Made by a program: the position numbers and the translations under genes
The notes under the pieces: generated by a model
What the model saw: only the letters and a program-made list of their open reading frames with translations
What the model was told of the DNA's origin: nothing
Databases searched by the model: none
Part shown: positions 4,969 through 18,673 of the stretch, one piece after another
How positions within the stretch are numbered: the first letter of the stretch is position 1
How the letters are laid out: each line of letters opens with the position of its first letter
Source: Gemmatimonadales bacterium
GTDB lineage: Bacteria > Gemmatimonadota > Gemmatimonadetes > Gemmatimonadales > GWC2-71-9
Direction of reading: 5' to 3'
NCBI GenBank assembly: GCA_025928645.1
Contig: JAICJD010000016.1
Coordinates: 1-34,638, forward strand
Length of the DNA stretch: 34,638 bases

Positions 4969-7900
4969 ATGAGCGAGCGCGACAACGCCTCCGGCGCACC
5001 GCCCCGATACTGGGAACGCCTGAACGAGATCTTTCACGCCGCGGTCGCGCTGCCACCGGGGGAGCGGGCCGGCCTTCTGGACCACGCCTGCCCGGACGAC
5101 CCGGACCTGCGGGCCGAGGTCGAACGGCTGATCTCCGCGCACGAACGGGCGGGCGGGTTCATCGAAGGCCCGGCGATCGCCGGCGCCGGACCATGGCTCA
5201 CAGAAGAGATCCTTGCGCCGATCGCCGGCGCGCGAGTGGGCTCCTACCGTGTGGAGCGCGAGATCGGCCGAGGCGGGATGGGGGCCGTGTATCTCGCCCA
5301 CCGTGCCGATGGCCACTACGAGCAGAAAGTCGCGATCAAGCTCATCAAGCGCGGCATGGATACCGACCTCGTGCTCGAGCGGTTCCGCGCCGAGCGCCGG
5401 ATTCTCGCCTCGCTGGACCACCCCAACATCGCCCGCCTGATTGACGGCGGCACTACCGACGACGGTCGGCCGTACTTCGTCATGGAGTACATCGAGGGAA
5501 AGCCGATCGACGAATATGCCGACATCCACCGCCTCGCGGTGCCCGAGCGGCTTCGTCTTTTCCTCCAGATCTGTGGGGCGGTCGCCTACGCCCACACCCG
5601 GCGGATCGTCCATCGGGATATCAAACCGGTCAACATCCTGGTCACCGCCGAGGGCGTCCCCAAGCTCCTCGATTTCGGGATTGCCAAGGTGCTGCACCCG
5701 GCCACCGACGAGCCCACCGCGACCATCACCGGGTTCCGGCTGCTGACCCCCGAGTACGCCAGCCCCGAGCAGGTGGAGGGCCGCCCGGCCACGGCCGCGA
5801 GCGACGTCTACTCGCTCGGCGTGGTGCTCTACGAGCTGCTCACCGGTCGGTCGCCGTACCGCTTGCGAAGCCGAGCCCCCGCGGACGTGGTGGAGGCGGT
5901 TCAAACGACCCGGCCCGAGCGACCGAGCCTGGCCGTTGCCCAACCGGGAGCAGCAGTAGACGCAGTGCCCCGCCGCACGGGACTGAACCCCGACCGGGCA
6001 GCGGCCACCGGCACCAACAGCAACGCCCGACTGTGCCGCCAGCTTCGGCGCGATCTCGACGACATCGTACTCACCGCGCTCCGCAAGGAACCGGCGCGGC
6101 GCTATGGGTCGGTGGCGCTGCTCGCGGAAGACATCCGGCGTCATTTGGAGGGGTTGCCGGTTCGGGCCCGGCCGGACGGGATGCTCTACCGCGCCGGCAA
6201 GTTTCTGCAGAGAAACCACAGCTCGGTGGTTGCCGCAGGCCTGGCGGCGCTGGTCGCCGTCGCTCTGGCGGGCAGCTTCGTCGCGTTCCGGGCTCGTGCG
6301 GCGGATGATCTGGACGGCTCGTTGCTCTCCACCGGTGCCTTGGCCCGACGGGATCGCATTCTGGTGGCGGATTTCACCGACCTCGCCAACGATTCCACGC
6401 TGGCCCGGGCCCTGACCGATGCGTTCCGGACCGATCTCGGCGAGTCCCCCGTGGTGCAGGTCATGAGCCTGCGCCAGGTGCGCTCGACCCTCATGCGCAT
6501 GGAACGGTCTCCGGAAGCGGTCCTCGACGATTCCCTGGCCCGCGAGATCGCGGCGCGCGAGGGCGTCAAGGCGTTCGTGAGCGGGACCGTGGCGCGGGTC
6601 GGCGGGGGCTACACGCTGACGGTGCAGTTGATCAGCGCGCAACGGGGTGAGGCGCTGACCGGCCTGCGTGAGACGGCCATCGACTCCTCCCAGCTGATCG
6701 CGGCTGTGGACAGGGCCAGCAAGGGCCTGCGCCACCGGATCGGCGAATCGCTCCGGGAGCTGGATGAGATGCCGCAGCTTTCTCAGGTGACCACCGCTTC
6801 GCTCCCGGCACTCCGTCGGTACACGGAAGGGAATCGGCTCTTTGTGGCCGGAGATCGCACCAAGGCCATCCGGTTGTTCGAGGAGGCCGTGGCCATCGAT
6901 ACCGGATTCGCGACCGCATACGAGGCGATGGCGAAGGTGTACGGGGCCTCGGCCGAGCCGGGCCGCGCCTTTGCGGTGGGGCAGCACGCCATGGCGAACC
7001 AGGCTCGGCTTTCGCTTCGCGAGCGTGAGGTCCAGCTCGCCTCGGCGGCATACGGCACCGGCGACTATCGGACGGCGATCGACCGCTACGGTCGACTGCT
7101 CGAGCGTTACCCCGACGACGCGGCAGCGCTCAGCAACATGGCGCTGGCCTACCGTGATTGGCGGAAGTTCACCACGGCCGAGAGCGTCTACCGGCGCGCC
7201 ATTCGAGCCGATTCCACCATTCCCGTGATCTACTTCGGACTGCACAGCGCGCAGCTGCTCCAGGGCAAATTCGGCGACTCCCGGCGGACCTTGGAGCTGA
7301 TCGGGCGGCGTTGGCCGAACGATCGGATTCTGCCGGTCGTAGAGGTGCAGAATGCTTCCGCACGTCAAGACTGGGATGAGGCGGAGCGGCTCGCGAAAGC
7401 GCGCATTGCCACTCAACGCGGCGACACCCTGCAGCTGCTGGACGGAGTCGAGGCCTTGGCGGGGATCGTGATGACGCGAGGACGTATGGCGGAGGCGGCG
7501 CGGCATTGGCAAACGCAGCTCGCGATGGCTGCCGCATCGGGGTCCTGGGGCCGCTATCTCTTCGGTGTGCAGGAGCTCGGGTATTTGCAGCTCCGCTACC
7601 ACGACGCACCCGGTCCGGCGCGAGCGCTGCTGGACTCGGTGCTGGTCCGTCACCCGCTGGAGAGCATTCTCCCCGGCGACCGGCCGTACTACGAGCTCGC
7701 CCGGTTCTACGTGGCTCTGGGGGATGTTTCTCGCGCGCGCGCCCTGCTCGCATCGGCCGACAGCACCGACCGCGCATTGGGCCGGAATCGCCCAGCCGAC
7801 CGAGCTTGGACGCGCGGGGTGATCGCGTTTGCCGCAGGGCGATCCGCCGAGGCGGAGGCCGAGCTTCGGCAGGCGGCCGAGACCGATTTCTGCGCGATCT

Positions 7901-8196
7901 GCGCGCTGCCGGACCTGGCGCGGGCGTACGAGGCTGCCGGCAAACCGGACTCGGCGCTAGTCACGTACGAGCGCTACCTCGCGACTCCTTGGCTGTTTCG
8001 GTACGAGGTCGACGCAGTCGAGCTCGGCTGGGCGCTGAAGCGGCTGGGTGAGCTGTATGAGGACAAGGGCGATCGGTCCAAGGCCGCCGCTGCTTTCTCC
8101 AAATTGGGTCTGCTCTGGGATCGGGCAGATCCCCACCTGCAGGGCGTGGTCGCGGACGCACGCCGGCGGGCCGAGTTTCCCGGCCCGCTGCGTTAA
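4969..8196 (+). CDS. Membrane Ser/Thr protein kinase with TPR repeats
   Basis: A 1075-residue kinase. Residues 1-70 are the helical leader typical of this kinase group (WERLNEIFHAAVALPPGER, then AHERAGGFIEGPA). The kinase domain runs from about 93 to 385, with loop GRGGMG, K124, H215-R216-D217 and D235 of DFG. It carries an unusually long insertion (about 305-360) between TGRSPY and LRRDLDDIVLTALRKEP. One transmembrane helix lies at about 418-440, then a TolB-like domain (ILVADFTDLANDSTLARAL, about 460-590), then TPRs to the end. The kinase should face the cytoplasm and the TolB-TPR half the periplasm. ATG 4969 is the only start that keeps the leader. Its stop TAA interlocks with that of the ECF sigma gene, hinting at a kinase-sigma pair. 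Confidence 0.92.
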   Translation: MSERDNASGAPPRYWERLNEIFHAAVALPPGERAGLLDHACPDDPDLRAEVERLISAHERAGGFIEGPAIAGAGPWLTEEILAPIAGARVGSYRVEREIGRGGMGAVYLAHRADGHYEQKVAIKLIKRGMDTDLVLERFRAERRILASLDHPNIARLIDGGTTDDGRPYFVMEYIEGKPIDEYADIHRLAVPERLRLFLQICGAVAYAHTRRIVHRDIKPVNILVTAEGVPKLLDFGIAKVLHPATDEPTATITGFRLLTPEYASPEQVEGRPATAASDVYSLGVVLYELLTGRSPYRLRSRAPADVVEAVQTTRPERPSLAVAQPGAAVDAVPRRTGLNPDRAAATGTNSNARLCRQLRRDLDDIVLTALRKEPARRYGSVALLAEDIRRHLEGLPVRARPDGMLYRAGKFLQRNHSSVVAAGLAALVAVALAGSFVAFRARAADDLDGSLLSTGALARRDRILVADFTDLANDSTLARALTDAFRTDLGESPVVQVMSLRQVRSTLMRMERSPEAVLDDSLAREIAAREGVKAFVSGTVARVGGGYTLTVQLISAQRGEALTGLRETAIDSSQLIAAVDRASKGLRHRIGESLRELDEMPQLSQVTTASLPALRRYTEGNRLFVAGDRTKAIRLFEEAVAIDTGFATAYEAMAKVYGASAEPGRAFAVGQHAMANQARLSLREREVQLASAAYGTGDYRTAIDRYGRLLERYPDDAAALSNMALAYRDWRKFTTAESVYRRAIRADSTIPVIYFGLHSAQLLQGKFGDSRRTLELIGRRWPNDRILPVVEVQNASARQDWDEAERLAKARIATQRGDTLQLLDGVEALAGIVMTRGRMAEAARHWQTQLAMAAASGSWGRYLFGVQELGYLQLRYHDAPGPARALLDSVLVRHPLESILPGDRPYYELARFYVALGDVSRARALLASADSTDRALGRNRPADRAWTRGVIAFAAGRSAEAEAELRQAAETDFCAICALPDLARAYEAAGKPDSALVTYERYLATPWLFRYEVDAVELGWALKRLGELYEDKGDRSKAAAAFSKLGLLWDRADPHLQGVVADARRRAEFPGPLR

Positions 8197-8789
8197 CCTC
8201 GCGGATCCCGGGGCGCTCCCTCGATGGCGCCGTAGAGCCACGCCCGGGCGAAGGTCCACTCGCGCTCGACCGTCGCATCCGAGATCCCCAGCACCTCAGC
8301 GATCTCCCGGGCCGATAGCCCGCCGAAGAACTTGAGCTCCACCACCTGGGCCTTGCGCGCGTCGAGCGCCGTGAGCCGCTCGAGCGCCTCCTCCAGCGCG
8401 ATCATTTCCACGTCCGGCCGGCCGGAGGGTGCCTCGACCAGACTCAGCGACACCGGTTCGGCACCTCGCCCCCGCTTGAGCGCCGCTCGGCGCCGGGCGT
8501 GGTCCACGAGGATCCGGCGCATGATGCCCGCGGCCACACCCAGAAACTGCGCGCGGTTCCGCCAGTCCACGCGCCGCTGGTCGATGAGCCGCAGGTAGGC
8601 CTCGTGGACCAGCGCGGTGGGCTGGAGCGTGTGTCCCGCATCCTCGTGGCTCAGGTACGCCTCGGCCAGGCGGTGCAGCTCGTCGTAGAGCACGGGCAGC
8701 ATCTGGTCCAGGCCGGACTTGTCGTTCCGGCCCAGGGCCAGGAGCCAGTCGGTGACCGCAGTGGGACTCTCGGGGGACAGCTCGCTCAT
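8193..8789 (-). CDS. ECF-type RNA polymerase sigma factor, TIGR02999-like
   Basis: A 198-residue sigma factor. Region 2 is at about 28-95: LYDELHRLAEAYLSHE, LQPTALVHEAYLRLID and RAQFLGVAAGIMRRILVDHAR. Region 4 is at about 135-190: VVELKFFGGLSAREIAEVLG followed by ISDATVEREWTFARAWL. The HTLQPTALVHEAYLRL signature marks the TIGR02999/Sigma70_ECF group. These are often encoded beside Ser/Thr kinases rather than classical anti-sigma factors, and none is visible here. It would direct RNA polymerase to a private promoter set. The neighbour at 4969-8196 is convergent and shares the TTAA stop, so control by phosphorylation is an inference from position. Upstream on the same strand lies a secreted protein gene (8883-9395) 93 bp away. 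Confidence 0.92.
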   Translation of the reverse strand: MSELSPESPTAVTDWLLALGRNDKSGLDQMLPVLYDELHRLAEAYLSHEDAGHTLQPTALVHEAYLRLIDQRRVDWRNRAQFLGVAAGIMRRILVDHARRRAALKRGRGAEPVSLSLVEAPSGRPDVEMIALEEALERLTALDARKAQVVELKFFGGLSAREIAEVLGISDATVEREWTFARAWLYGAIEGAPRDPRG

Positions 8790-8882
8790 GGCGACCGGCG
8801 GAAGGGCGAGGATGGAACGCCTCCACCGGGAGTCTACGGTCCGATCGACCGTTGCTCAAGGGCAACGTGCTCTTCCTTCGGG

Positions 8883-9395
8883 TCACCGGACTCTTCCCGC
8901 GGCGATCCGGGCCAGTCCGACCGCGTACGGCTGAGCGGATTCCGCCGGCTGGCCGGGATTCGGCTTGACCCGTACGGTCAGCGTCCGGGACCCGACATAG
9001 GCCACCAGAAAGCCTTCGGGCTCCTTACCCTTGGCCGTGAAGTAGATGGAAGCGGAGTCGCCCACCCCTGAGACGGCGTGCTGGGTCTGGTCGAAGCCAT
9101 TGCCCGCCATGATCCGGCTCACCGTCTTGTGCGGCAGGGGCGTCGATATCAGCGCGACCTGGGTTGACGCCTTCCAGAAATCGCATGCCGACTCGGTGTG
9201 TTGAACGGTGCCGAGGCGCCCGGGGGGGTCCGTCAGGTGCCGGCTGGTTACCCGCTCGACCTCCGCATTGCTCACCAGGTCGCAGGCGTGGACATAGCCC
9301 CTCGGCGCGCTGGACTGGCCAACCAGTCCCGATCGTGCCGGGATGAACCAGAGCATCGCAATCATCAGGATAGGTATCAGCCTTCTGCATTCCAT
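8883..9395 (-). CDS. Secreted two-cysteine domain protein (DUF3558-like), copy A
   Basis: A 170-residue exported protein. The N terminus is a signal peptide (LIPILMIAMLWFIPARSGL). The mature part has C38 with Glu seven residues on (CDLVSNAE), then C71 followed at +2 by an aromatic (C-D-F). The later part contains GVGDSASIYF, GFLVAYVGSRTLTV and ends ARIAAGRV. The same order of motifs occurs in three other exported proteins in this window (13951, 14472 and 17699). The layout recalls the actinobacterial DUF3558 secreted family; the two cysteines probably form a disulfide. The function is unknown. The GC is slightly lower than that of its neighbours. It lies 93 bp upstream of the sigma gene and could share a transcript with it. 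Confidence 0.7.
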   Translation of the reverse strand: MECRRLIPILMIAMLWFIPARSGLVGQSSAPRGYVHACDLVSNAEVERVTSRHLTDPPGRLGTVQHTESACDFWKASTQVALISTPLPHKTVSRIMAGNGFDQTQHAVSGVGDSASIYFTAKGKEPEGFLVAYVGSRTLTVRVKPNPGQPAESAQPYAVGLARIAAGRVR

Positions 9396-9580
9396 GAGTT
9401 CCCCATTTTCGTCGGGCCGAGTCCGGCCATCAGGTGTACCGACGAGGAGCGAGACTTGGCGGGCGGGTCGCTCATCGCGATCAGCGAAGGGGTGGTCTCA
9501 ATGTGGGTACTAAGTGTGTTCACGGCACTGTCGGGCGTTTCTCAATGGGCAACCTATGGGCACTAGGACGCGCTCAGCCG

Positions 9581-11266
9581 CTAATTCTTGCATAGGTGTA
9601 TCGCGGGGTAGGTTGTATCCCAGTGGAAGACCGGTTTGCTGTAGTCGATCAAGTCCGAGTCCAGCTTTGCGTGCGTCGAGGCATTTCTAGAAAACATGCT
9701 TGCCAGCACGTCTATAAAAGCCGGTTCAAGCTTATAACCAACGCCACCGTTCACGGCGATATCCGTCGATGCCATTCGGCACACCAAGAGGCCGAGGTCG
9801 GAGCCGCGGGTCACGGTGAAGGAAGCCGTGAGCCCAGCGTGGGGACCCACGAATGCCGCCGGGATGCCGAGTCCCAAGACAAGCCGGATTTGATAGGCGA
9901 CGACCACCCCGTTCACGCCCAGTGAGGCACCCCGCAACGCGCTGAGAAGACTCTGCTGAATCTGGATGTTGGGGGCAGAGGCGCTGGTGCCGTCAGCGTC
10001 GGAATTGCTGCTCAGGGCACCCGAGATGACGTAGGACCCATGGGCCAGCAGGGTGGAATTCTTGGCGGTGAATGCGGTCTGGATCATGAATTTCTGGCGC
10101 ACGGCAATGTTGAGCGGAAGCCCGAGCGTCGGCGCGACTGGAAGCACGAGGTCGACCGGCATCTCGATCCGTTGGCTGAGATTGTCCGACAGTCCGAGCC
10201 TGCTTCCTGCCCCGATATCGACGTCGATCTGTCTGATCCCGTCGACTCGAAAATTGCTCTGTTGGATCCGGCCGTCGCTGATCACCGTGTTGGCGTGCAG
10301 CCTGGGCTCCTGCAGGTGGAGTGTGAAAGTGATTCCGAGCTCGAGACCAGCAGATACGCCGGACCCTTCGAGCGGCTGGCTGCTCCAGGGCTTGGTGCCA
10401 TCCTTGTTGTCGGGCGGCCGTTTACGCGATTGGCTCGCGCTCGGGCCATAGGCAACCCGTACGACGAGCACTTGCTGGTCCGCAGCCTGGTACGGCCAAG
10501 TGCTGTGCGGCACAGATTGCGACATCTCGACCACGAAGCGCCCGACTCCAAACGCCAGGGAATGACCTACCGTAGCCGGTGGCAGCGTATTCTGTCCCCC
10601 TTGCGTCGATCGGTCCACGGCGATCAGACGCGTGACCGGCAGTGTCACGTCCGACGCCCGCCAGTCAGCGTATCGGACCGGCTCACCCTGGTATCGGTCA
10701 CTGACAAGTGAAGGGGCTGCCCGCACTGCACCGGGGAGCTCGGGGGTCTGAACGAAGGCAAAGTTCCGGAAATCGATCGGTTGGTCGACCTTGATCACAC
10801 CATCCCGAATGACATCGGTAAGGTCCACGGGTCCCAGCCAGACCGACACGTCTGGACCGACCCGTTCGAGCTTGAGAACCCGACCGACTCCCCGACTGGT
10901 TACGAACATGACCATTCCGGGGCGTACCTCATCGATATGAGGTGCATTTCCACGGATCGTCCATACGATCCCATCGGCGCTCACCGAGCGAACGGAACCC
11001 GATCCACCACCTACGATCACGACATCCGGCTGATAGGCCACCTTTGCGTCAGGCACGGGACCCAGGCCGTACAGGTATTCCGCCTGACTGAACTTCGCTG
11101 GACCACCCGGACGGAAATCGCCCGCTGCCCTGCCGGCCCATCGCAGTCCCAGCCAGATCGTAGCCGCGAGGACCCCCAGTGCGACCAAGGCGACGAGCGA
11201 GGTTCGATACCGAGTCAGCTTGCCAGTCAGCGTCTCAGTGGGTCCAGACTTCGCGTCGTGTGTCAT
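9581..11266 (-). CDS. Membrane-anchored protein of unknown function, low GC
   Basis: A 561-residue protein I do not recognise. One N-terminal transmembrane helix (SLVALVALGVLAATIWLGL, about 24-42) follows a short polar leader, leaving about 510 residues likely in the periplasm. The rest is rich in beta-type alternation (for example VVIVGGGSGSVRSVSADGIVW and VWLGPVDLTDVIRDGVIKVD) and has very few cysteines. Base composition is unlike the surroundings: 9661-9720 is about 48% GC against roughly 65-70% nearby, suggesting recent arrival. Start is ATG 11266, 37 bp after the secreted protein gene 11304-11927 on the same strand, so the two probably form an operon and may act together. A 185-bp gap (9396-9580) follows its stop, in which I see no gene. 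Confidence 0.7.
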   Translation of the reverse strand: MTHDAKSGPTETLTGKLTRYRTSLVALVALGVLAATIWLGLRWAGRAAGDFRPGGPAKFSQAEYLYGLGPVPDAKVAYQPDVVIVGGGSGSVRSVSADGIVWTIRGNAPHIDEVRPGMVMFVTSRGVGRVLKLERVGPDVSVWLGPVDLTDVIRDGVIKVDQPIDFRNFAFVQTPELPGAVRAAPSLVSDRYQGEPVRYADWRASDVTLPVTRLIAVDRSTQGGQNTLPPATVGHSLAFGVGRFVVEMSQSVPHSTWPYQAADQQVLVVRVAYGPSASQSRKRPPDNKDGTKPWSSQPLEGSGVSAGLELGITFTLHLQEPRLHANTVISDGRIQQSNFRVDGIRQIDVDIGAGSRLGLSDNLSQRIEMPVDLVLPVAPTLGLPLNIAVRQKFMIQTAFTAKNSTLLAHGSYVISGALSSNSDADGTSASAPNIQIQQSLLSALRGASLGVNGVVVAYQIRLVLGLGIPAAFVGPHAGLTASFTVTRGSDLGLLVCRMASTDIAVNGGVGYKLEPAFIDVLASMFSRNASTHAKLDSDLIDYSKPVFHWDTTYPAIHLCKN

Positions 11267-11303
11267 GGCCTGGCTCCGGTTAAGGCATCGACAGCAGGGC
11301 CGG

Positions 11304-11927
11304 TCACCGCTCCGGCTTACTGACCGCCGCGGCCACCGCTTCGGCCGCCTGCTGCGCGAGCGGCGTCAGCAGATCCTCCCCGTCCGACCCCGCCTTCCTT
11401 TTCTCCGTCTTCTCGCTCAGCACCTCCCCGGCCGCCGCCTCCAACCGCCAGGTGAGCGACAGCTCGTCCTTGGTCCGCACCCCGGACGCCATATCCGAAA
11501 CCGCGCCGCCGGCCGCCCCGCTGACCGCACTCGCCGCGACGCCTCCCGCGGTCGACCCGACCGAGCTGGCGGCGCGCCAAGCTCCCGCTTGCACGGCCTC
11601 GCCCGCGGCGCGACCGAGAATGTGGCTGCCCGACTTGCGCCGCTGCTTGACCGTCGTGAGCAGGAGATAGCGGCAGTTGGCCTGGTGGGCCTCGGTGCGT
11701 ACCTGCGACGTCAGCCGAGAGCTCAGCGGTTGCACGCCCAGGGTGGGCCCGGTGAGGAACTGGGTGAGCCTCTCTCCGACCGCGCTCACCACGGTGTTGG
11801 CGTCCCCCGTACTCGCCTCGACGGTCGTCGGCGCCAGACACACCCGGGTGGTGTCCGCGGGCTCCTTCGCTGCGGCCGTAGCCCATGGGAGGAGCGCGAG
11901 CAGGAGCGTTGCTGGACGGCGTGTCAT
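11304..11927 (-). CDS. Exported protein of unknown function
   Basis: A 207-residue protein with a signal peptide (MTRRPATLLLALLPWATAAAK). I start it at ATG 11927 because an ATG at 11954 would add nine polar residues ahead of the signal. The mature N-terminal half (VCLAPTTVEAS, GERLTQFLTGP, LSSRLTSQVRTEAHQANCRYLLLTTVK) has two cysteines and resembles the fold of FlgO/TolB-like periplasmic domains in motif order only. A glycine/alanine-rich hydrophobic stretch (about 110-150) might be a membrane or oligomerisation segment. The domain after it begins SLTWRLEAAAGEVL. It lies directly upstream of the 561-residue membrane protein on the same strand. I cannot name a family. Confidence 0.7.
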   Translation of the reverse strand: MTRRPATLLLALLPWATAAAKEPADTTRVCLAPTTVEASTGDANTVVSAVGERLTQFLTGPTLGVQPLSSRLTSQVRTEAHQANCRYLLLTTVKQRRKSGSHILGRAAGEAVQAGAWRAASSVGSTAGGVAASAVSGAAGGAVSDMASGVRTKDELSLTWRLEAAAGEVLSEKTEKRKAGSDGEDLLTPLAQQAAEAVAAAVSKPER

Positions 11928-11995
11928 TGGCACCCCCTCGAATGGACCGGTCATGCGGCGCGTGGGCCCTCCATGGACTAACGCGTAGCGCGACC

Positions 11996-12020
11996 GACGC
12001 CGCCCTCAGCCAGCGGCGTC
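11996..12020. promoter_or_regulatory. Inverted repeat in the divergent promoter region
   Basis: GACGCCGC at 11996-12003 and GCGGCGTC at 12013-12020 form an 8-bp inverted repeat with a 9-base loop. It sits in the 229-bp gap between the divergent genes starting at 11927 (minus) and 12157 (plus). It may be an operator or a hairpin; no clear promoter boxes accompany it. Apart from this element I see nothing in 11928-12156. Confidence 0.3.
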
Positions 12021-12156
12021 TCGAGGCTGGGAATGCTCCGACGGGCGAGAGTGAGGGTATCCGGTGAGCCCTGACGCGTATCAGGCAGAGGGGAGTGCGC
12101 GAGCGTCAACCGCCGCCGGTCTGCCTCGGACCGGCTTCCGTCCAGGAGATCAGACC

Positions 12157-12672
12157 ATGAAGGGCGCCATTCGCGTCGTCGGGTTGCTGGCCATCCCGGT
12201 ACTGGTGGCTGGTGGGCTCCAGGCGCAGTCTCCGAAAGCCCGCATTACCCTCACCGGCGGCGCCCAGGCCGGCACCTACGAGATGACCGGCTCCCCGATG
12301 TGCAAGACCTTCGACTCCGGCTCTGAGGACCACGGCTTCGGCGCCGAGTTCGTGGCCGACCCGCCGCACGGCTGGCGCAAGGGCCCGCCCTACCTCTCCC
12401 ACCTCTGGCTCACCACGCCGAGGATGCAACACCCGAAGCCCGACGCGGTCTCGATCGGCGTGACGTTCACCAAGTGGGGCACACCCGCCATCGAGATCGA
12501 CTACAAGGTCTACACCATCCCGCCCGCGCTCGATAACAACCCCGAGCTCGGCCGCAAGCAGACCGGCAAGGGGCAGGCGATGGTGACACGTGCCGGCGGC
12601 AAGCTCGGCGCGACCTTCAGCGGGGAGACCGCGGACGGCGTGCGGCTGGAAGGGACCCTGGAGTGCCAGTGA
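12157..12672 (+). CDS. Secreted protein of unknown function
   Basis: A 171-residue exported protein. ATG 12157 is chosen over an earlier in-frame ATG at 12064 because it is preceded by an AGGAG ribosome site and begins a clean signal peptide (IRVVGLLAIPVLVAGGLQAQ). The mature part is probably all beta: ARITLTGGAQAGTYEM, VSIGVTFTKWGTPAIEIDYK, AMVTRAGGKLGATFSGETA and RLEGTLEC. It has two cysteines, one near the mature N terminus (SPMCKTF) and one near the end (LEC). No family recognised. It overlaps the OmpA-family gene by 4 bp (GTGA), so the two should be translated together and may form an envelope pair. Confidence 0.75.
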   Translation: MKGAIRVVGLLAIPVLVAGGLQAQSPKARITLTGGAQAGTYEMTGSPMCKTFDSGSEDHGFGAEFVADPPHGWRKGPPYLSHLWLTTPRMQHPKPDAVSIGVTFTKWGTPAIEIDYKVYTIPPALDNNPELGRKQTGKGQAMVTRAGGKLGATFSGETADGVRLEGTLECQ

Positions 12673-13793
12673 CCGCCCCACGCTGGGCTCTCGTCGTTGC
12701 GCTCGTGGGCGCACGCCCGAGTGCGGCCGCGGTGGCGCAGGAGAACGCTCCTCGGATCCCCCTGGTCACCGGCCTCGTCCTCGGCTCGGTCCTCCACTCG
12801 CCCCTCGGCGAGCGCGAGGATGTCCTCGAGATCGCGAGCGCCGACACCAGCGGCGTCCACTACGCCTGGCACGAGCGGACGATCACGGCAAAGGGCGACA
12901 CGACGAACGGCTTCCGCAAGCGGTTCGTCCGCGCGAACGATCTGGCTGGCGCGCCGCGGTTCGACGACGTCTTCGGCACGGAAGAGCAGGTGCGCCCTGG
13001 CTTTACGGCCCTCTCGGTCTCGACCGCGGTGTATCGGGAGCTGCGCGACGCCGGGAGCACCCCGTTCAGCATGATCGTGACCCCGCTCGAGGCCCGTACC
13101 ATGACCGCGAGCGCGACGTCCCTGAGCGGTCTGCTCGCGCCCCCCCGGGTACGCTACAAAGGAAGTCTGACCCGCGTCTCGCCCCGGCCCGAGCCGTTCC
13201 CCCTGCTCGTCAACGGCAGCCGAGCCGAGCTCCCGGCGATGCATCTGAAGGGGAGCTTTGCCGACGGGTTGCGGCGGGAGGAATGGGACCTCTGGGTCCT
13301 GGCCGACAGCGCCCATCCGCTGCTCCTCAAGTCCGTGCTTGGAGAGGACGTCTTCCAGATGGTGCGGGCCGATCTGCCCGGCACGCCGGCCGCACGGGAT
13401 GGTGGGCTGCTGGCCTCCCGGCCGTTGAAGGCTGCGCTCGACGAGAGCTGCCGGCTGGAGCTGCCCGGCGTCTACTTCGCCTTCCGCACCGCGACCATCG
13501 ATCCGATCTCCGATCGCGCCCTCGCCGAGCTCGCGCGCGCCCTCGCCGGGCACCCCGCCTGGAAGTTCACCATCGAGGGCCACACCGACAGCGTCGGGAC
13601 CGCGTCGGCCAACCAGGCGCTCTCGCAGCGCCGAGCCGAAGCGGTGCGCGCCCGTCTGGCCGAGCGGCACGGACTGGACACGCACGCGTGGGGAGCGGTC
13701 GGGTACGGCGCCACCCGGCCGAAGGAGTCGAACGCCACCATCGAGGGCCGGGCGCGAAACCGCCGGGTCGAGCTGGTTCGGGACTGCCGCTGA
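12669..13793 (+). CDS. OmpA-family peptidoglycan-binding protein
   Basis: A 374-residue exported protein. The GTG at 12669 overlaps the upstream TGA stop (GTGA) and is preferred over the GTG at 12663. A signal peptide (APRWALVVALVGARPSAAAVAQ) precedes about 230 residues of unknown N-terminal domain. The C-terminal OmpA/MotB domain (about 262-372) begins LPGVYFAFRTATIDPISDRAL and holds the peptidoglycan-binding signature GHTDSVGTASANQALSQRRA, with D307 and R365 at the positions known to hold diaminopimelate in the family. It should anchor an outer-membrane or periplasmic assembly to the cell wall. It has no Lol-type lipobox. The N-terminal domain has no recognisable beta-barrel pattern and could be the functional part of an uncharacterised complex. 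Confidence 0.9.
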   Translation: MTAPRWALVVALVGARPSAAAVAQENAPRIPLVTGLVLGSVLHSPLGEREDVLEIASADTSGVHYAWHERTITAKGDTTNGFRKRFVRANDLAGAPRFDDVFGTEEQVRPGFTALSVSTAVYRELRDAGSTPFSMIVTPLEARTMTASATSLSGLLAPPRVRYKGSLTRVSPRPEPFPLLVNGSRAELPAMHLKGSFADGLRREEWDLWVLADSAHPLLLKSVLGEDVFQMVRADLPGTPAARDGGLLASRPLKAALDESCRLELPGVYFAFRTATIDPISDRALAELARALAGHPAWKFTIEGHTDSVGTASANQALSQRRAEAVRARLAERHGLDTHAWGAVGYGATRPKESNATIEGRARNRRVELVRDCR

Positions 13794-13822
13794 TCGCGCG
13801 CGTGTGCATCGCGGCGAAATGG

Positions 13823-13916
13823 GAGTCACCCTGAGCGAAGCGAAGGGGACCTGCCCTGATGTATGGCTCCTTCGCGAAGCCTGCCCTGAGCGAAGCGAAT
13901 GGGCTCAGGGTGACTC
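13823..13916. repeat. REP-like palindromic element
   Basis: A 94-bp structured element. The outer arms GAGTCACCCTGAGC (13823-13836) and GCTCAGGGTGACTC (13903-13916) are a perfect 14-bp inverted repeat. Inside are two direct copies of CCCTGAGCGAAGCGAA and a smaller GCGAAGG/CCTTCGC pair. The core GAGCGAAGCGAAGG resembles the core of the 84-bp palindrome at 32822-32905. These are extragenic, dispersed repeats of the REP type; upstream ATGs in this stretch are only chance readings through the repeat. Confidence 0.75.
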
Positions 13917-13950
13917 TCTCGGATTTCGAATGCGCACTACGGAGGTTTCC

Positions 13951-14469
13951 ATGTGGAAGAAGGCAGCCCTGCGCTCCGCCATCGCGACGGCCTGCGCCTG
14001 CGCCCCGGGAGGGGTGCTGTCCGCCCAGTCCCCCGCGATGGACGCGTGTTCGGCCCTGACCCGGGACGAGATCAAGGCCCTCTCGGGAAACCGTGACCCG
14101 GGAGCACCCTCCCCGGGCAGTTTCAAGCCGGGCGATCCCGTCACGACCTGTTACTGGCAGCAAACCAGTCCGAAGAGCTCCGTGAACCTGTGGTCCAACG
14201 TCAGCCCGAAGGAGCCCAAGGGCCTCGCGCTGAAGCAGATGGTCGCCCGCGGCAAGAAGGCCCGGCCCGTCCCGGGTCTCGGCGATGACGCGTTCTTCGT
14301 GGAGGAGCCGAGCGAGCACCCGGGAGGAACGATCTACGTGCGGGTCGGCCACTGGCGCGTGGTCATTTACAGAGAAGCCGACACGCCGCTGTCGAAATCC
14401 GAATCGGTCTTGCCCACGCTCACGGCGCTCGCCAAGGCGACCGTGCCGAAACTGCAGAAGGCGGGCTGA
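13951..14469 (+). CDS. Secreted two-cysteine domain protein (DUF3558-like), copy B
   Basis: A 172-residue exported protein. ATG 13951 is fixed by GGAGG 5 nt upstream; an earlier in-frame ATG at 13804 only reads through the repeat element. The signal region (LRSAIATACACAPGGVLSAQ) is followed by C33 with Glu seven residues on (CSALTRDE) and C67 with Trp at +2 (CYW), 34 residues apart as against 33 in copy A. Then come LGDDAFF, IYVRVGHWRVVIY and an ending LAKATVPKLQKAG. Its stop is two bases before the ATG of the next family member (14472), so the two are one transcription unit. A likely disulfide-linked domain; function unknown. It starts 157 bp after the OmpA-family gene. Confidence 0.75.
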   Translation: MWKKAALRSAIATACACAPGGVLSAQSPAMDACSALTRDEIKALSGNRDPGAPSPGSFKPGDPVTTCYWQQTSPKSSVNLWSNVSPKEPKGLALKQMVARGKKARPVPGLGDDAFFVEEPSEHPGGTIYVRVGHWRVVIYREADTPLSKSESVLPTLTALAKATVPKLQKAG

Positions 14470-14471
14470 CG

Positions 14472-15680
14472 ATGCCGGCGCCTGTTGGTCGTCTCCTGCC
14501 GCTCGCGGCGCTCACCCTGCTGTCGGCCTGTGACCGGGGCGCCAGTCCAGCCGCTGCCGCGTCCGCCGCCACCGCGTCCGCCGCCACCGCGTCCGCTGCG
14601 GCCCCCGAGCATGCTCGCGAGGCCGACCGCGAGGCCGACCGCGACCGAGCTCCTGCCGCTTCGGCGTCGGCCGTCCGCATGGCGGCGCGCCCGGCCAATG
14701 CCTGCGGCTGGATCTCGGCGGCCGAGGTCGTCAGGATCGTCGGCCCGCTCACCGCGGCGCCGTATGCGACGGAGGACGGCTGCGTGTACCCGCTGCCCCT
14801 GGACACGGCCGCCGCGCACCGGCACGACGAGGTGGTCGAGCTCCGTCGCCAGCTCGCGGCGGCCTACGGCAAATCCGATCTGCCCGAGGTCGAGCCGGAC
14901 ACCAGCGGCGTGATCGTGGACGTCGTGCTCTACGCCGATCCCACGATGGCGCGCGGCATCGGCGCGGCGTTGGCAAAAATTGGACACGACATGTGCGACG
15001 ACTCGGCCAGCAGGAACATGCCCTGGTGCAGGGCTGCCGAGCGCAGCGCTTCGTCGCCAGCACCCCCGCCTGCCGGATGGGACAGGTCCAACGATCCGCC
15101 CTCGCCGTCCTTCTTTGGCCAGCTCGGCCATGTAGTCGTGGACGTGAAGGTCCGCGCGGCCAGGGTCACGCGCGAGCAGAGCATCGCGATCGCCGACCGC
15201 ATCCGCGACGCGATGCCCGACCTCCCGTTCCCCTCGGAACGGCCCGCCAATCTCGCCGGTCCCGACCCCTGCATCCTGCTCAAGGTGGAGGAAGTCGAGC
15301 CGGTGCTCGGCAAGCTGGTCGTGCCGCCGTACCGCTCCGACGAGGAGACGCCGCTGGCGATGGCGCAGGGCAAGAGCTGCGCGTACCTGACGGCCGGCCA
15401 CCACGCGCTGGTCCTGACACCGACCTGGGCATACGGCGGCATAGCCTTCGACGGGATGCGGGCGGTCGGCGGACTGATCGAGCGGGTCGCGCCCGTCCTG
15501 CACGACGACGCGGCGGACACCCTCGATACCGGGCCGTGGGAGGACGCCGCCGGTGATCCCGCGACCGGCCAGCTCTACTTCCTCAAAGGCGACCGCGCCC
15601 TCGAGCTGGGCTTTCTCGTCTCCTCGACCGGTTTCGATGGCGCGGTGCGGCTGGCGCGCATCGCTGTCGGGCGGCTGTGA
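14472..15680 (+). CDS. Lipoprotein with two copies of the two-cysteine domain (C1, C2)
   Basis: A 402-residue lipoprotein. The signal ends in a lipobox, LLSAC (about residues 15-19), so it should be lipidated at that Cys. A low-complexity linker (Ala/Ser, then EADREADRDR) precedes domain C1: CGWISAAEV, second cysteine in CVYPL after 26 residues. Domain C2 follows from about residue 265: CILLKVEEV with second cysteine in CAYL after 36 residues, ending ARIAVGRL, close to the ARIAAGRV ending of copy A. C1 also contains an extra Cys pair near 170-190. Function unknown; the tandem repeat suggests duplication inside the gene. Cotranscribed with copy B. A tandem 15-bp repeat encodes the linker. Confidence 0.72.
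   Translation: MPAPVGRLLPLAALTLLSACDRGASPAAAASAATASAATASAAAPEHAREADREADRDRAPAASASAVRMAARPANACGWISAAEVVRIVGPLTAAPYATEDGCVYPLPLDTAAAHRHDEVVELRRQLAAAYGKSDLPEVEPDTSGVIVDVVLYADPTMARGIGAALAKIGHDMCDDSASRNMPWCRAAERSASSPAPPPAGWDRSNDPPSPSFFGQLGHVVVDVKVRAARVTREQSIAIADRIRDAMPDLPFPSERPANLAGPDPCILLKVEEVEPVLGKLVVPPYRSDEETPLAMAQGKSCAYLTAGHHALVLTPTWAYGGIAFDGMRAVGGLIERVAPVLHDDAADTLDTGPWEDAAGDPATGQLYFLKGDRALELGFLVSSTGFDGAVRLARIAVGRL
14557..14601 (+). repeat. 15-bp tandem repeat, three units, inside the lipoprotein linker
   Basis: Units CCGCGTCCGCCGCCA at 14557-14571 and 14572-14586 are identical, and the third (14587-14601) differs slightly. They encode the repeating Ala-Ser-Ala-Ala-Thr linker after the lipobox. 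The count could vary between strains. Confidence 0.8.
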
Positions 15681-15755
15681 CCACCGCTTGCGCTGATGAG
15701 GGAGTCTCCGGGCCTCGCACGCGTTGAGTAATGGACGCCAACGCGGAGACGCCCC

Positions 15756-17623
15756 ATGCCCCCCTGCACCCGCCCCACCACGCACCTGCGGACGCGCGCT
15801 CTGCCGGCGCCCTGGCTCCTCATCGTCGCTCTCGCGTGCGCCGAGCCCGACGCCTTCGGGCCGGAGCCACCGGAGCGGGCTGCTCCAGTGCCGGCGATTC
15901 CGGTTGCCACGGCCACCACCAACGTGTGGGCCAGCAAGGCCGCCATGCCGACCCCGCGGCACGCGCTCGCCGTCGGCGTCGTGAACGGGATCGTCTACGC
16001 GGTCGGCGGCACGCGAAACGGCATAAACCAGGCGACGGTCGAGGCCTACAACCCGGGCAGCAACAGTTGGACGGCCCGGGCGCCCCTCCCCCAGTCACGG
16101 AGCGGCCTGAACGGTTCCGGGACCATCAACGGCGTGCTCTACGTCGCCGGCGGATTCGGCACCAACGGCGCGACCAACACCCTCTACGCCTACAATCCGT
16201 CGACCAATACCTGGGCCACTCGGGCACCGATGATCTACAGCGCTGTCTGCGGCGGGAGCGGCGTGATCGGTGGCCGCCTCTACGTCTACGGCTACACCGG
16301 CTGCACCGTCGGCGGCGTCTCGTTCCAGCGTTACGATCCCGCCACCAATAAATGGACGGCCCTGACCGTGACCACTTGGCCGCACTCAGGGCCGACGGTC
16401 GGCGTGGCCGGCGGAAAGTTCTATCTCGCCGGCGGTGAGGACAATTTGGGGCAGACGACCAGCCGCCTCGAGGTCTACGACCCCGCCACGGATACCTGGA
16501 CGACCAAGACCTTCATGGACCAGCAGCGCTCCGGAGCCGGGGGTGCGGTGATCAACGGTCTCTTCTATGTGGTGGGCGGATGGGTGCGGGCCGGCAACAC
16601 CTACCTGAACACCGTCGAGGCGTACGACCCCGGCAGCGATACCTGGCGCTATGTGACCGCGCTCAGCGCGGGACGGCCTTCTTCGGCGCGGCGCCCGTCG
16701 GGAAAAAGCTGTACGCCGTGGGCGGCTTCAATCCGACCCTCGGCGAGCTGGCGACCAACCAGGCGTACACGCAGGGTGATATCTGGGTGACCAAGCGTCC
16801 CCTGACGACCGCGCGCGTCGGCCCCATGGCCGCCGTGATCGGGAGCAAGCTCTACGTCGTGGGCGGCATCTCGCCCAGCAATCTGGCGCAGCTCGCGACC
16901 AACGAGGCGTACACGCCGAGCACCGACAAGTGGACCAGCCGCGCGCCGCTGCCTCAGGCGATCGTGGACGCCGACGGGGCCGCGGTCATCAACGGCGTGC
17001 TCTACCTGCCGGGCGGCCGGCACGGCGGCAGCTACGTGAACACCCTCTATGCCTACAACGCCTCGACCAACAGCTGGACGGCCAAGGCGGCGCTGCCGGT
17101 GGCCGGCGCCAACGGGGTGAGTGGGGCGATCGGCGGTAAGCTCTACGTGCTGACGGCCGCCGGTGCCGGCGGCTACGTGAAACGCCTCGATCGCTACGAC
17201 CCGGGAACGGACACCTGGACCTCGGTCGCGCCCCCGCTGGGTTACCACGCCAGCGCGGCGGCCGGGGTGATCAACGGCAAGCTCTACGTGGCCGGGGGCG
17301 GCACGCCGAGCGGCATCACGAACGCGCTGGAGGTCTACGATGCGTCCGCCAACACCTGGCGCGCGCTCGCGCCGATGTCGACGCCGCGCTCGGGCGCGGC
17401 GGCGGCCGTGGTGAACGGCCGGCTCTACGTGGCCGGGGGGCAGGACCCGTCGTTGAACAAGGTGCCTGCGATCGAAGTGTACAACCCGGCCATTAATACG
17501 TGGAGTAAGCTCGCCTCGATGCAGACCGCGCGGTCCTTCGTCGCCGGCGGGGCGACCAACGGCGCGTTCTATGTCGTCGCCGGTCTGTCCAACGGCACGC
17601 TGAACCAGGCCTACCTGCCGTAA
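15756..17623 (+). pseudogene. Kelch-repeat exported protein, broken by a one-base frameshift
   Basis: An exported protein of about 620 residues with twelve kelch motifs, each of the form [ST]W....APMP..R.......INGKLYVAGG, apparently two six-bladed or one twelve-bladed beta-propeller. The N-terminal signal region (PAPWLLIVALACAEP) may be lipidated, though the lipobox is weak. Five motifs are in frame before 16675. There the GGACGGCCTT stretch has apparently lost one G, since adding it restores AGR-AFFGAAPVGKKLYAVGG. The remaining motifs run in the next frame to 17623. As read, the first part ends early at 16790. This may be real inactivation or a base-calling error. Kelch propellers bind proteins or sugars; the partner here is unknown. 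Flanked by two genes of the cysteine-pair family. Confidence 0.85.
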
Positions 17624-17684
17624 GGGAGATAGGCGAGTGACGCACGCCCGAGCTCGTAGCCACCGCCACTCGGTGAAACGATGT

Positions 17685-17692
17685 TGAGGAGG
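17685..17692 (+). promoter_or_regulatory. Strong ribosome binding site
   Basis: TGAGGAGG lies 6 nt before ATG 17699. It selects this start over an earlier in-frame ATG at 17681 that overlaps the ribosome site itself. Confidence 0.75.
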
Positions 17693-17698
17693 TACCAT

Positions 17699-18673
17699 AT
17701 GCCTTCCAGATTTCGGTCGCCGGGACTCCTTCTGATCACCGCGCTCGGCACGATCGGTTTCGGGGCCTGCGGGGACGGTGCATCGGGCCAGGCGACGTCC
17801 GGTGCGTCCAGGTCGAGTCAGCCGCCGTCTCTCTGCCCATCGTTCGCGGACGTGAGCACCGCGGCAGGCTTCCCCGTCACATTGAAGACCTCGGGCGGGA
17901 GCAAGGACAGCTTTCTCTGCTCGTACGGGCTGACCGGCCGCTACCGGGGCACCACGATCGAGCTCACCGGCGAGCCCGCCTCGCTGGCGGAGGATGTCTT
18001 CACCAAGGTGAAGCAGTCGGCGAAGGTCCTGAACGGCCAGAGTGCCGAGGCCGAACGGATCGACCTCGGCTCGGGGGGGTGGGCCTATGGCGGCGACGGC
18101 GGGGAGGCCGCCGCGGCCGGCGGCGGTCACGTGTACCATGTCACGCTCCACAGCGGCCCCCTGTCCAGCATTGGCGACCAGAAGGATGCGATGGTACGCA
18201 TCCTGAAGCTCACGCTCCAGGCCGCGCCGGCAGGCCAACCCGAATCGGGGCAGCACGGCTGCATGCTGGTCACCAGCGCCGAATTCGACCAGGAATACGA
18301 GACCGACCCCAGGATGCGCGGCATGGCCTCTGATCCGATGGCGACCGACATGTCCTGGGGACCGCATTGCGACTACGATGGCGGATCGATCGACCTGTTC
18401 CAGACCAACCCGCCGGATAAGGAACTCGATCGGGTGCTCGGGTTGCTGGAGGCCGGCAAGCAGCCACGGCTGCCGGTTCAGGGCCTCGGGCAGCGCGCGT
18501 TCTTCACGGTCATCTACCCGGACGACGAGAACCGGCGCCGCGGCTTTCTCGCCGTCTATACCGGCCCGCGGATCGTGAGCTTCAGCATGGATGCGCACCC
18601 GAACGAGGCGATCGAGGCGACGCGGCCGAGGCTCGAGCGCCTGGCCAAGCTGGTGCTGCCGCGGCTCAGGTGA
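17699..18673 (+). CDS. Exported protein with two copies of the two-cysteine domain (D1, D2)
   Basis: A 324-residue exported protein, possibly a lipoprotein (signal LLLITALGTIGFGAC, with a non-canonical Phe in the lipobox). D1 starts at CPSFADVSTAAG with second cysteine in CSY 28 residues on. D2 starts at CMLVTSAEF (Glu seven residues on) with second cysteine in CDY 36 residues on. D2 then has GLGQRAFF, RGFLAVYTGPRIVSF and an ending LAKLVLPRL, close to copy A (GFLVAYVGSRTLTV, LARIAAGRV). The region 110-150 is Gly/Ala-rich. Function unknown; it is the most complete member of the family in this window and follows the kelch gene by 75 bp. Confidence 0.75.
   Translation: MPSRFRSPGLLLITALGTIGFGACGDGASGQATSGASRSSQPPSLCPSFADVSTAAGFPVTLKTSGGSKDSFLCSYGLTGRYRGTTIELTGEPASLAEDVFTKVKQSAKVLNGQSAEAERIDLGSGGWAYGGDGGEAAAAGGGHVYHVTLHSGPLSSIGDQKDAMVRILKLTLQAAPAGQPESGQHGCMLVTSAEFDQEYETDPRMRGMASDPMATDMSWGPHCDYDGGSIDLFQTNPPDKELDRVLGLLEAGKQPRLPVQGLGQRAFFTVIYPDDENRRRGFLAVYTGPRIVSFSMDAHPNEAIEATRPRLERLAKLVLPRLR

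Follow-up and report, generated by a model that had tools for sequence, protein, structure and literature searches.

DUF3558, a protein domain without an assigned function, is best known from Actinobacteria. In the literature, no paper on DUF3558 itself was found, and none that combines Gemmatimonadota, lipoproteins and a domain of unknown function; neither the literature nor a sequence profile compared with solved structures yielded a family member with a known function, and the profile search of solved structures returned no relative by sequence. Two further systems serve for comparison, namely the extracellular domain of the mycobacterial kinase PknH, and PsbP, DUF1795 and DcrB, which form one fold class.

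The window, that is, the whole stretch of DNA that was analysed (34,638 nucleotides), comes from a Gemmatimonadales bacterium and corresponds to contig C254 of a 3.9 Mb assembly in 294 contigs (G000). The preliminary description had reported six copies of a secreted two-cysteine domain in four proteins encoded within 10 kb, with a layout recalling DUF3558 in a non-actinobacterial genome. The host is a member of Gemmatimonadota, and the copies share with DUF3558 their nature of small exported domains with conserved cysteines; each is 138-184 aa long and has two cysteines, in agreement with the exported, cysteine-bearing domain of about 140-190 aa by which DUF3558 is recognised. In contrast, the occurrence of two- and three-domain proteins and the linkage to an OmpA gene lie outside the Pfam definition.

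Four exported proteins and their six domains

Protein A (8883..9395, minus strand; 170 aa) and protein B (13951..14469, plus strand; 172 aa) each consist of a signal peptide followed by one DUF3558-like domain. The domain of A, matched by the profile at 8886-9302 on the minus strand, has its cysteine codons at 9282-9284 and 9183-9185, and that of B, at 14026-14457 on the plus strand, at 14047-14049 and 14149-14151; the open frame of B extends upstream to 13804. Protein C (14472..15680; 402 aa) and protein D (17681..18673; 330 aa, with an alternative second ATG at 17699), both on the plus strand, are lipoproteins of two domains, with the lipoboxes LSAC (Cys20) and FGAC (Cys30), respectively. 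The profile match of domain C1 spans 14688..15224 (cysteine codons 14703-14705 and 14781-14783) and C2 lies at 15255..15677 (15270-15272 and 15378-15380), while D1, the most divergent copy, occupies 17816..18226 (17834-17836 and 17918-17920) and D2, the closest to A, 18239..18670 (18260-18262 and 18368-18370), all on the plus strand. The four ORFs were confirmed and have a coding-type GC3 of 0.81-0.87. Export of all four proteins had also been claimed, and it is borne out by the lipoboxes of C and D and by the signal-peptidase-I-like N-termini of A and B, both recognised by inspection only.

The motifs previously read from the sequence were all recovered. Thus, C-x6-E occurs in five of the six domains, D1 having an Asp at +5 instead, and the second cysteine, found 33 (A), 34 (B), 26 (C1), 36 (C2), 28 (D1) and 36 (D2) residues after the first, is followed at +2 by an aromatic residue in every case (C-x-[YFW]: CDF, CYW, CVY, CAY, CSY and CDY). 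A, B, C2 and D2 share the ending LA[RK]...[KR][LV], and A (GFLVAYVGSR) and D2 (GFLAVYTGPR) have GFL-x2-Y-x-G-x-R in common. When each domain was shuffled, the double motif appeared in only 0-0.2% of the shuffles. Both cysteines are kept in 89 of 90 domains collected across Gemmatimonadota, with a spacing of 26-46 residues; an aromatic residue stands two positions after the second cysteine in 87 of these 89, and a Glu at +7 from the first in 60. A second cysteine pair (C175 and C186; codons 14994-15029) lies within an insertion of C1, and is retained in G003 and G013 and missing from the other C1 domains read.

Homology of the domains and their relation to DUF3558

Pairwise identities among the six domains are low (11-28%). 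The search within the genome itself connected A with D2 (E 5.6e-5, 28% identity across 142 aa), and a first scan of the genome contigs with B as query found no relative. Taking into account such low identities, and the fact that D1 is barely detectable, it could be argued that these are unrelated secreted proteins in which two cysteines coincide by chance. However, profile-profile comparison (hhalign) gave P values of 1.5e-11 for A-D2, 1.5e-9 for C1-C2, 2e-8 for A-B, 3e-5 for B-C2, 5e-5 for B-D2 and 4e-4 for A-C2, compared with about 0.02-1 for reversed controls; D1 was not detected in this comparison. Moreover, when each class was removed in turn and sought with a profile of the remaining relatives, B (E 4e-17), A (E 1e-14), C1 (E 1e-6) and D2 (E 1e-5) were recovered, as was C2, whose E value of 1.7e-23 is flattered by C2-type domains from other loci that stayed in the set. 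The recovery of D1 was marginal (11.7 bits, E 0.09), with the alignment in register; its orthologs gave E values of 0.048, 0.006 and 0.009 (best 15.7 bits), and the best shuffle in this test, at 8.5 bits, scored below all of them. A bridging relative (G067:C9, L094:4337-4870) was matched by both the C1 profile and the A/B/D2 profile. Together with the conservation of both cysteines across the phylum, these results refute a chance likeness for A, B, C1, C2 and D2, D1 being the exception, and leave such a coincidence hardly credible for the set as a whole. Since the leave-class-out profiles, the profile-profile comparison with its reversed controls and the bridging relative point the same way, the existence of one homologous family, with D1 as its weakest member, is well supported at the level of sequence profiles.

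The Pfam DUF3558 profile (PF12079) matches B (22.2 bits, E 1.5e-4) and C2 (20.7 bits, E 4.4e-4) over about positions 35-96, its first half, and has no match in A or D; all window copies thus fall under the gathering cut-off of 34.1 bits. The same profile matches seven of the 19 seed domains and, among 41 further relatives, 32 (best E 9.8e-12). Its cut-off is exceeded by proteins in G327, G269, G190 and G325 (39.3 and 35.5 bits in G327:C241, 43.6 bits in G269:C86), and each of these four genomes also gives a match to the profile derived from the domains of the window. Since relatives recognised in this way pass the cut-off, the window domains are, as judged from these profiles, a divergent branch of DUF3558, as their layout had suggested. 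Lying below the cut-off, they are missed by automatic annotation.

Membership of PknH_C (PF14032) was also considered and was dropped because its profile matched nothing in this genome at E 0.001; weak matches were obtained for two of the 19 domains (best E 0.046), and a single match, below the cut-off, in the 298 genomes searched across the phylum. Nothing spoke for a phage origin, the sole PHROG match having an E value of 0.07, and tblastn against plasmids gave nothing useful.

It had been proposed that a profile of these domains be searched against proteomes. The profile made from 19 domains had matches in 32 of the 298 genomes, spread across the phylum. This genome contains a seventh copy (G000:C114:15541-15975, L021), beside a gene for a BTAD regulator with TPR repeats; seven copies each are present in G013 and G262, and four tandem DUF3558 genes, two of them exceeding the Pfam cut-off, are found in a distant Gemmatimonadota family (G327:C241:948-3337, L114). 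In the tree, the six domains fall into separate old lineages, and B, C and D each cluster with their orthologs in further genomes, including another genus, which rules out a recent local amplification. The C1-type and C2-type domains form sister clades that each cover two families, so the two-domain form must be old; the order is swapped, with a C2-type domain N-terminal and a C1-type domain C-terminal, at L090:5000-6112, L091:6071-7360, L109:1273-2511 and L110:1363-2526. Thus, the dense expansion of the preliminary description is real as regards density, which is striking, but its copies are old and similar copy numbers occur in other genomes of the phylum, and the domain itself is a known one.

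Predicted structure and conserved gene neighbourhoods

AlphaFold predicted C and D with weak overall confidence (mean pLDDT 60.8 and 53.1), with better-modelled parts at the start of C1 (80-93) and in the last third of D2 (74-91). The order of elements is broadly alike in C1, C2, D1 and D2 (helix, two or three strands, helix, three strands, helix), with additional helices in C1; the first cysteine directly precedes helix 1, and the second either immediately precedes a following strand or opens it. The four domains agree in the order of elements and in the places of their cysteines, which accords in part with the common fold with facing cysteines that had been proposed as a check, but in models of low confidence. 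Foldseek gave no match below E 0.001 for either protein. D resembled PsbP (probability 0.99, E 5e-3) and, more generally, PsbP, SciW/EagT6 and DcrB (probability 0.8-0.99, E 0.005-0.07, TM about 0.3-0.4 to the target), and the matches of C, all non-significant, were Dip2269 (probability 0.54), TiME and the PknH extracellular domain (4esq). The fold is probably Mog1p/PsbP-like on the basis of these weak models, with no sequence similarity to PsbP, DUF1795/EagT6-SciW or DcrB.

Directly upstream of B and C lies a gene for an OmpA-family protein (12663..13793, plus strand) whose C-terminal peptidoglycan-binding domain is recognised by Pfam OmpA with 77.1 bits (cut-off 27.2; E 1.4e-21); its N-terminal domain has no Pfam match. 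In G003 (L018), of the same genus, and in G013 (L019), from a second genus within the family, the OmpA-type gene is likewise followed by B, C and D in that order; a 4-base overlap joins B to C in either genome, and C to D in G003. The pair OmpA-C is found without the full set in G012, G008, G002, G064 and AG11, the last belonging to another family of the order; G064 has two tandem C genes, and in G008 C1, C2 and D1 lie within a single ORF. The cluster relatives that bear names are MAGs of Gemmatimonadales or Gemmatimonadetes. The L018 and L019 clusters contain homologs of an exported protein encoded upstream of the OmpA-type gene (12154..12672, plus strand), and an exported protein of 216 aa (11304..11954, minus strand), with no family above cut-off, recurs near the OmpA and C genes of relatives (L018, L019, L023, L059 and L088).

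The OmpA-type N-terminal domain (8 carriers) and C (9 carriers) occur together in 7 of 102 genomes, with a P value of 1.5e-8 that overstates the evidence, since related genomes were counted as independent. OmpA is also the commonest Pfam family among the near neighbours of the relatives (8 of 78, mostly in the same clusters). In the rest of the phylum, however, numerous relatives lack an adjacent OmpA gene, and OmpA therefore cannot count as a partner of the domain in general; some relatives there adjoin BTAD regulators (5 of 78 neighbours) or DUF4412 genes.

Two side observations concern the same stretch. A kelch gene, placed between C and D in the window, after D in G003 and not seen in G013, is split over two frames (15756-16790 and 16580-17623, with the switch near 16690); the gene of G003 is also split, at a different place (L018:7711-8163 / 8160-9164), and either indels introduced by the assembly of repeats or genuine frameshifts would account for this. 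At 9581-11266, on the minus strand, a protein of 561 aa without a Pfam match is encoded, whose GC3 of 0.71 is lower than that of its neighbours; it was possibly acquired.

The surroundings of A are different. Just downstream, on the same strand and 94 bp away, lies a gene for an ECF sigma factor (8193..8789, minus strand; Pfam Sigma70_ECF, E 8.5e-53), convergent with that of a Ser/Thr kinase with TPR repeats (4969..8196, plus strand; Pfam Pkinase, E 3e-46). This arrangement, a relative of A in G006 (L055) with a sigma gene within 1 kb, the BTAD regulators adjoining several relatives, and the weak resemblance to PknH in Foldseek and in PknH_C profile matches have led us to consider, as the main rival and one best suited to A, that these proteins are extracytoplasmic sensors, which would pass the binding of an envelope ligand to the neighbouring sigma factor or kinase, as is supposed for the mycobacterial PknH extracellular domain. 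However, no window protein is fused to a kinase, PknH_C is without a match in this genome, regulators of the sigma, kinase and BTAD types are common in these genomes, and B, C and D accompany OmpA, not a sigma gene, in most relatives. A sensory role is, on balance, unlikely.

A possible role in the cell envelope

The gene order and the co-occurrence with OmpA lead us to favour, with somewhat less than even confidence, a reading in which disulfide-pinned binding or adaptor domains of DUF3558 type act in the envelope together with a peptidoglycan-anchored OmpA-type protein. The four proteins carry six divergent domains of this type, small, exported and probably Mog1p/PsbP-like, in which a disulfide probably links the cysteine immediately ahead of helix 1 to one that opens an early strand. 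Homology, shared cysteines, gene order and co-occurrence with OmpA were observed, and from them the disulfide, the fold, the location and the binding or adaptor role are inferred. C and D would be tethered by their lipid to a membrane, with B and A as soluble exported proteins. The OmpA C-terminal domain in general binds peptidoglycan, a property that the OmpA-type protein encoded ahead of the operon-like cluster of B, C and D should share; these three would most likely serve as its binding or adaptor subunits, docking on it or delivering something to it, with A as an additional copy beside an ECF sigma gene.

It might alternatively be proposed that the proteins handle lipids or cofactors in the envelope on their own, in the manner of actinobacterial proteins of the LpqN or TtfA type, the OmpA neighbour being merely co-expressed. 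Pairs of DUF3558-like and DUF4412 genes at L022:4265-5826 and L050:5275-6786, in two genomes of different families, and the appearance of mycobacterial TiME among the structural matches of C would be in line with this, yet such pairing is limited to three genomes, and no ligand-binding residue pattern is apparent besides the cysteines and a G-x-G-D / W-D motif; we therefore look on this alternative as improbable. The adaptor reading admits a stronger version, which we put forward as a doubtful proposal, namely that several diverged and disulfide-pinned domains of DUF3558 type assemble on the peptidoglycan-bound OmpA-type protein into one complex, an envelope module of Gemmatimonadota that would be undescribed, with two- or three-domain lipoproteins among its subunits and with subunits gained or lost between species.

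DUF3558 is thus found in a phylum with two membranes, in proteins of several domains and accompanied by a partner gene that is both specific and conserved. This conserved OmpA partner offers a first testable lead on what DUF3558-type domains may do.
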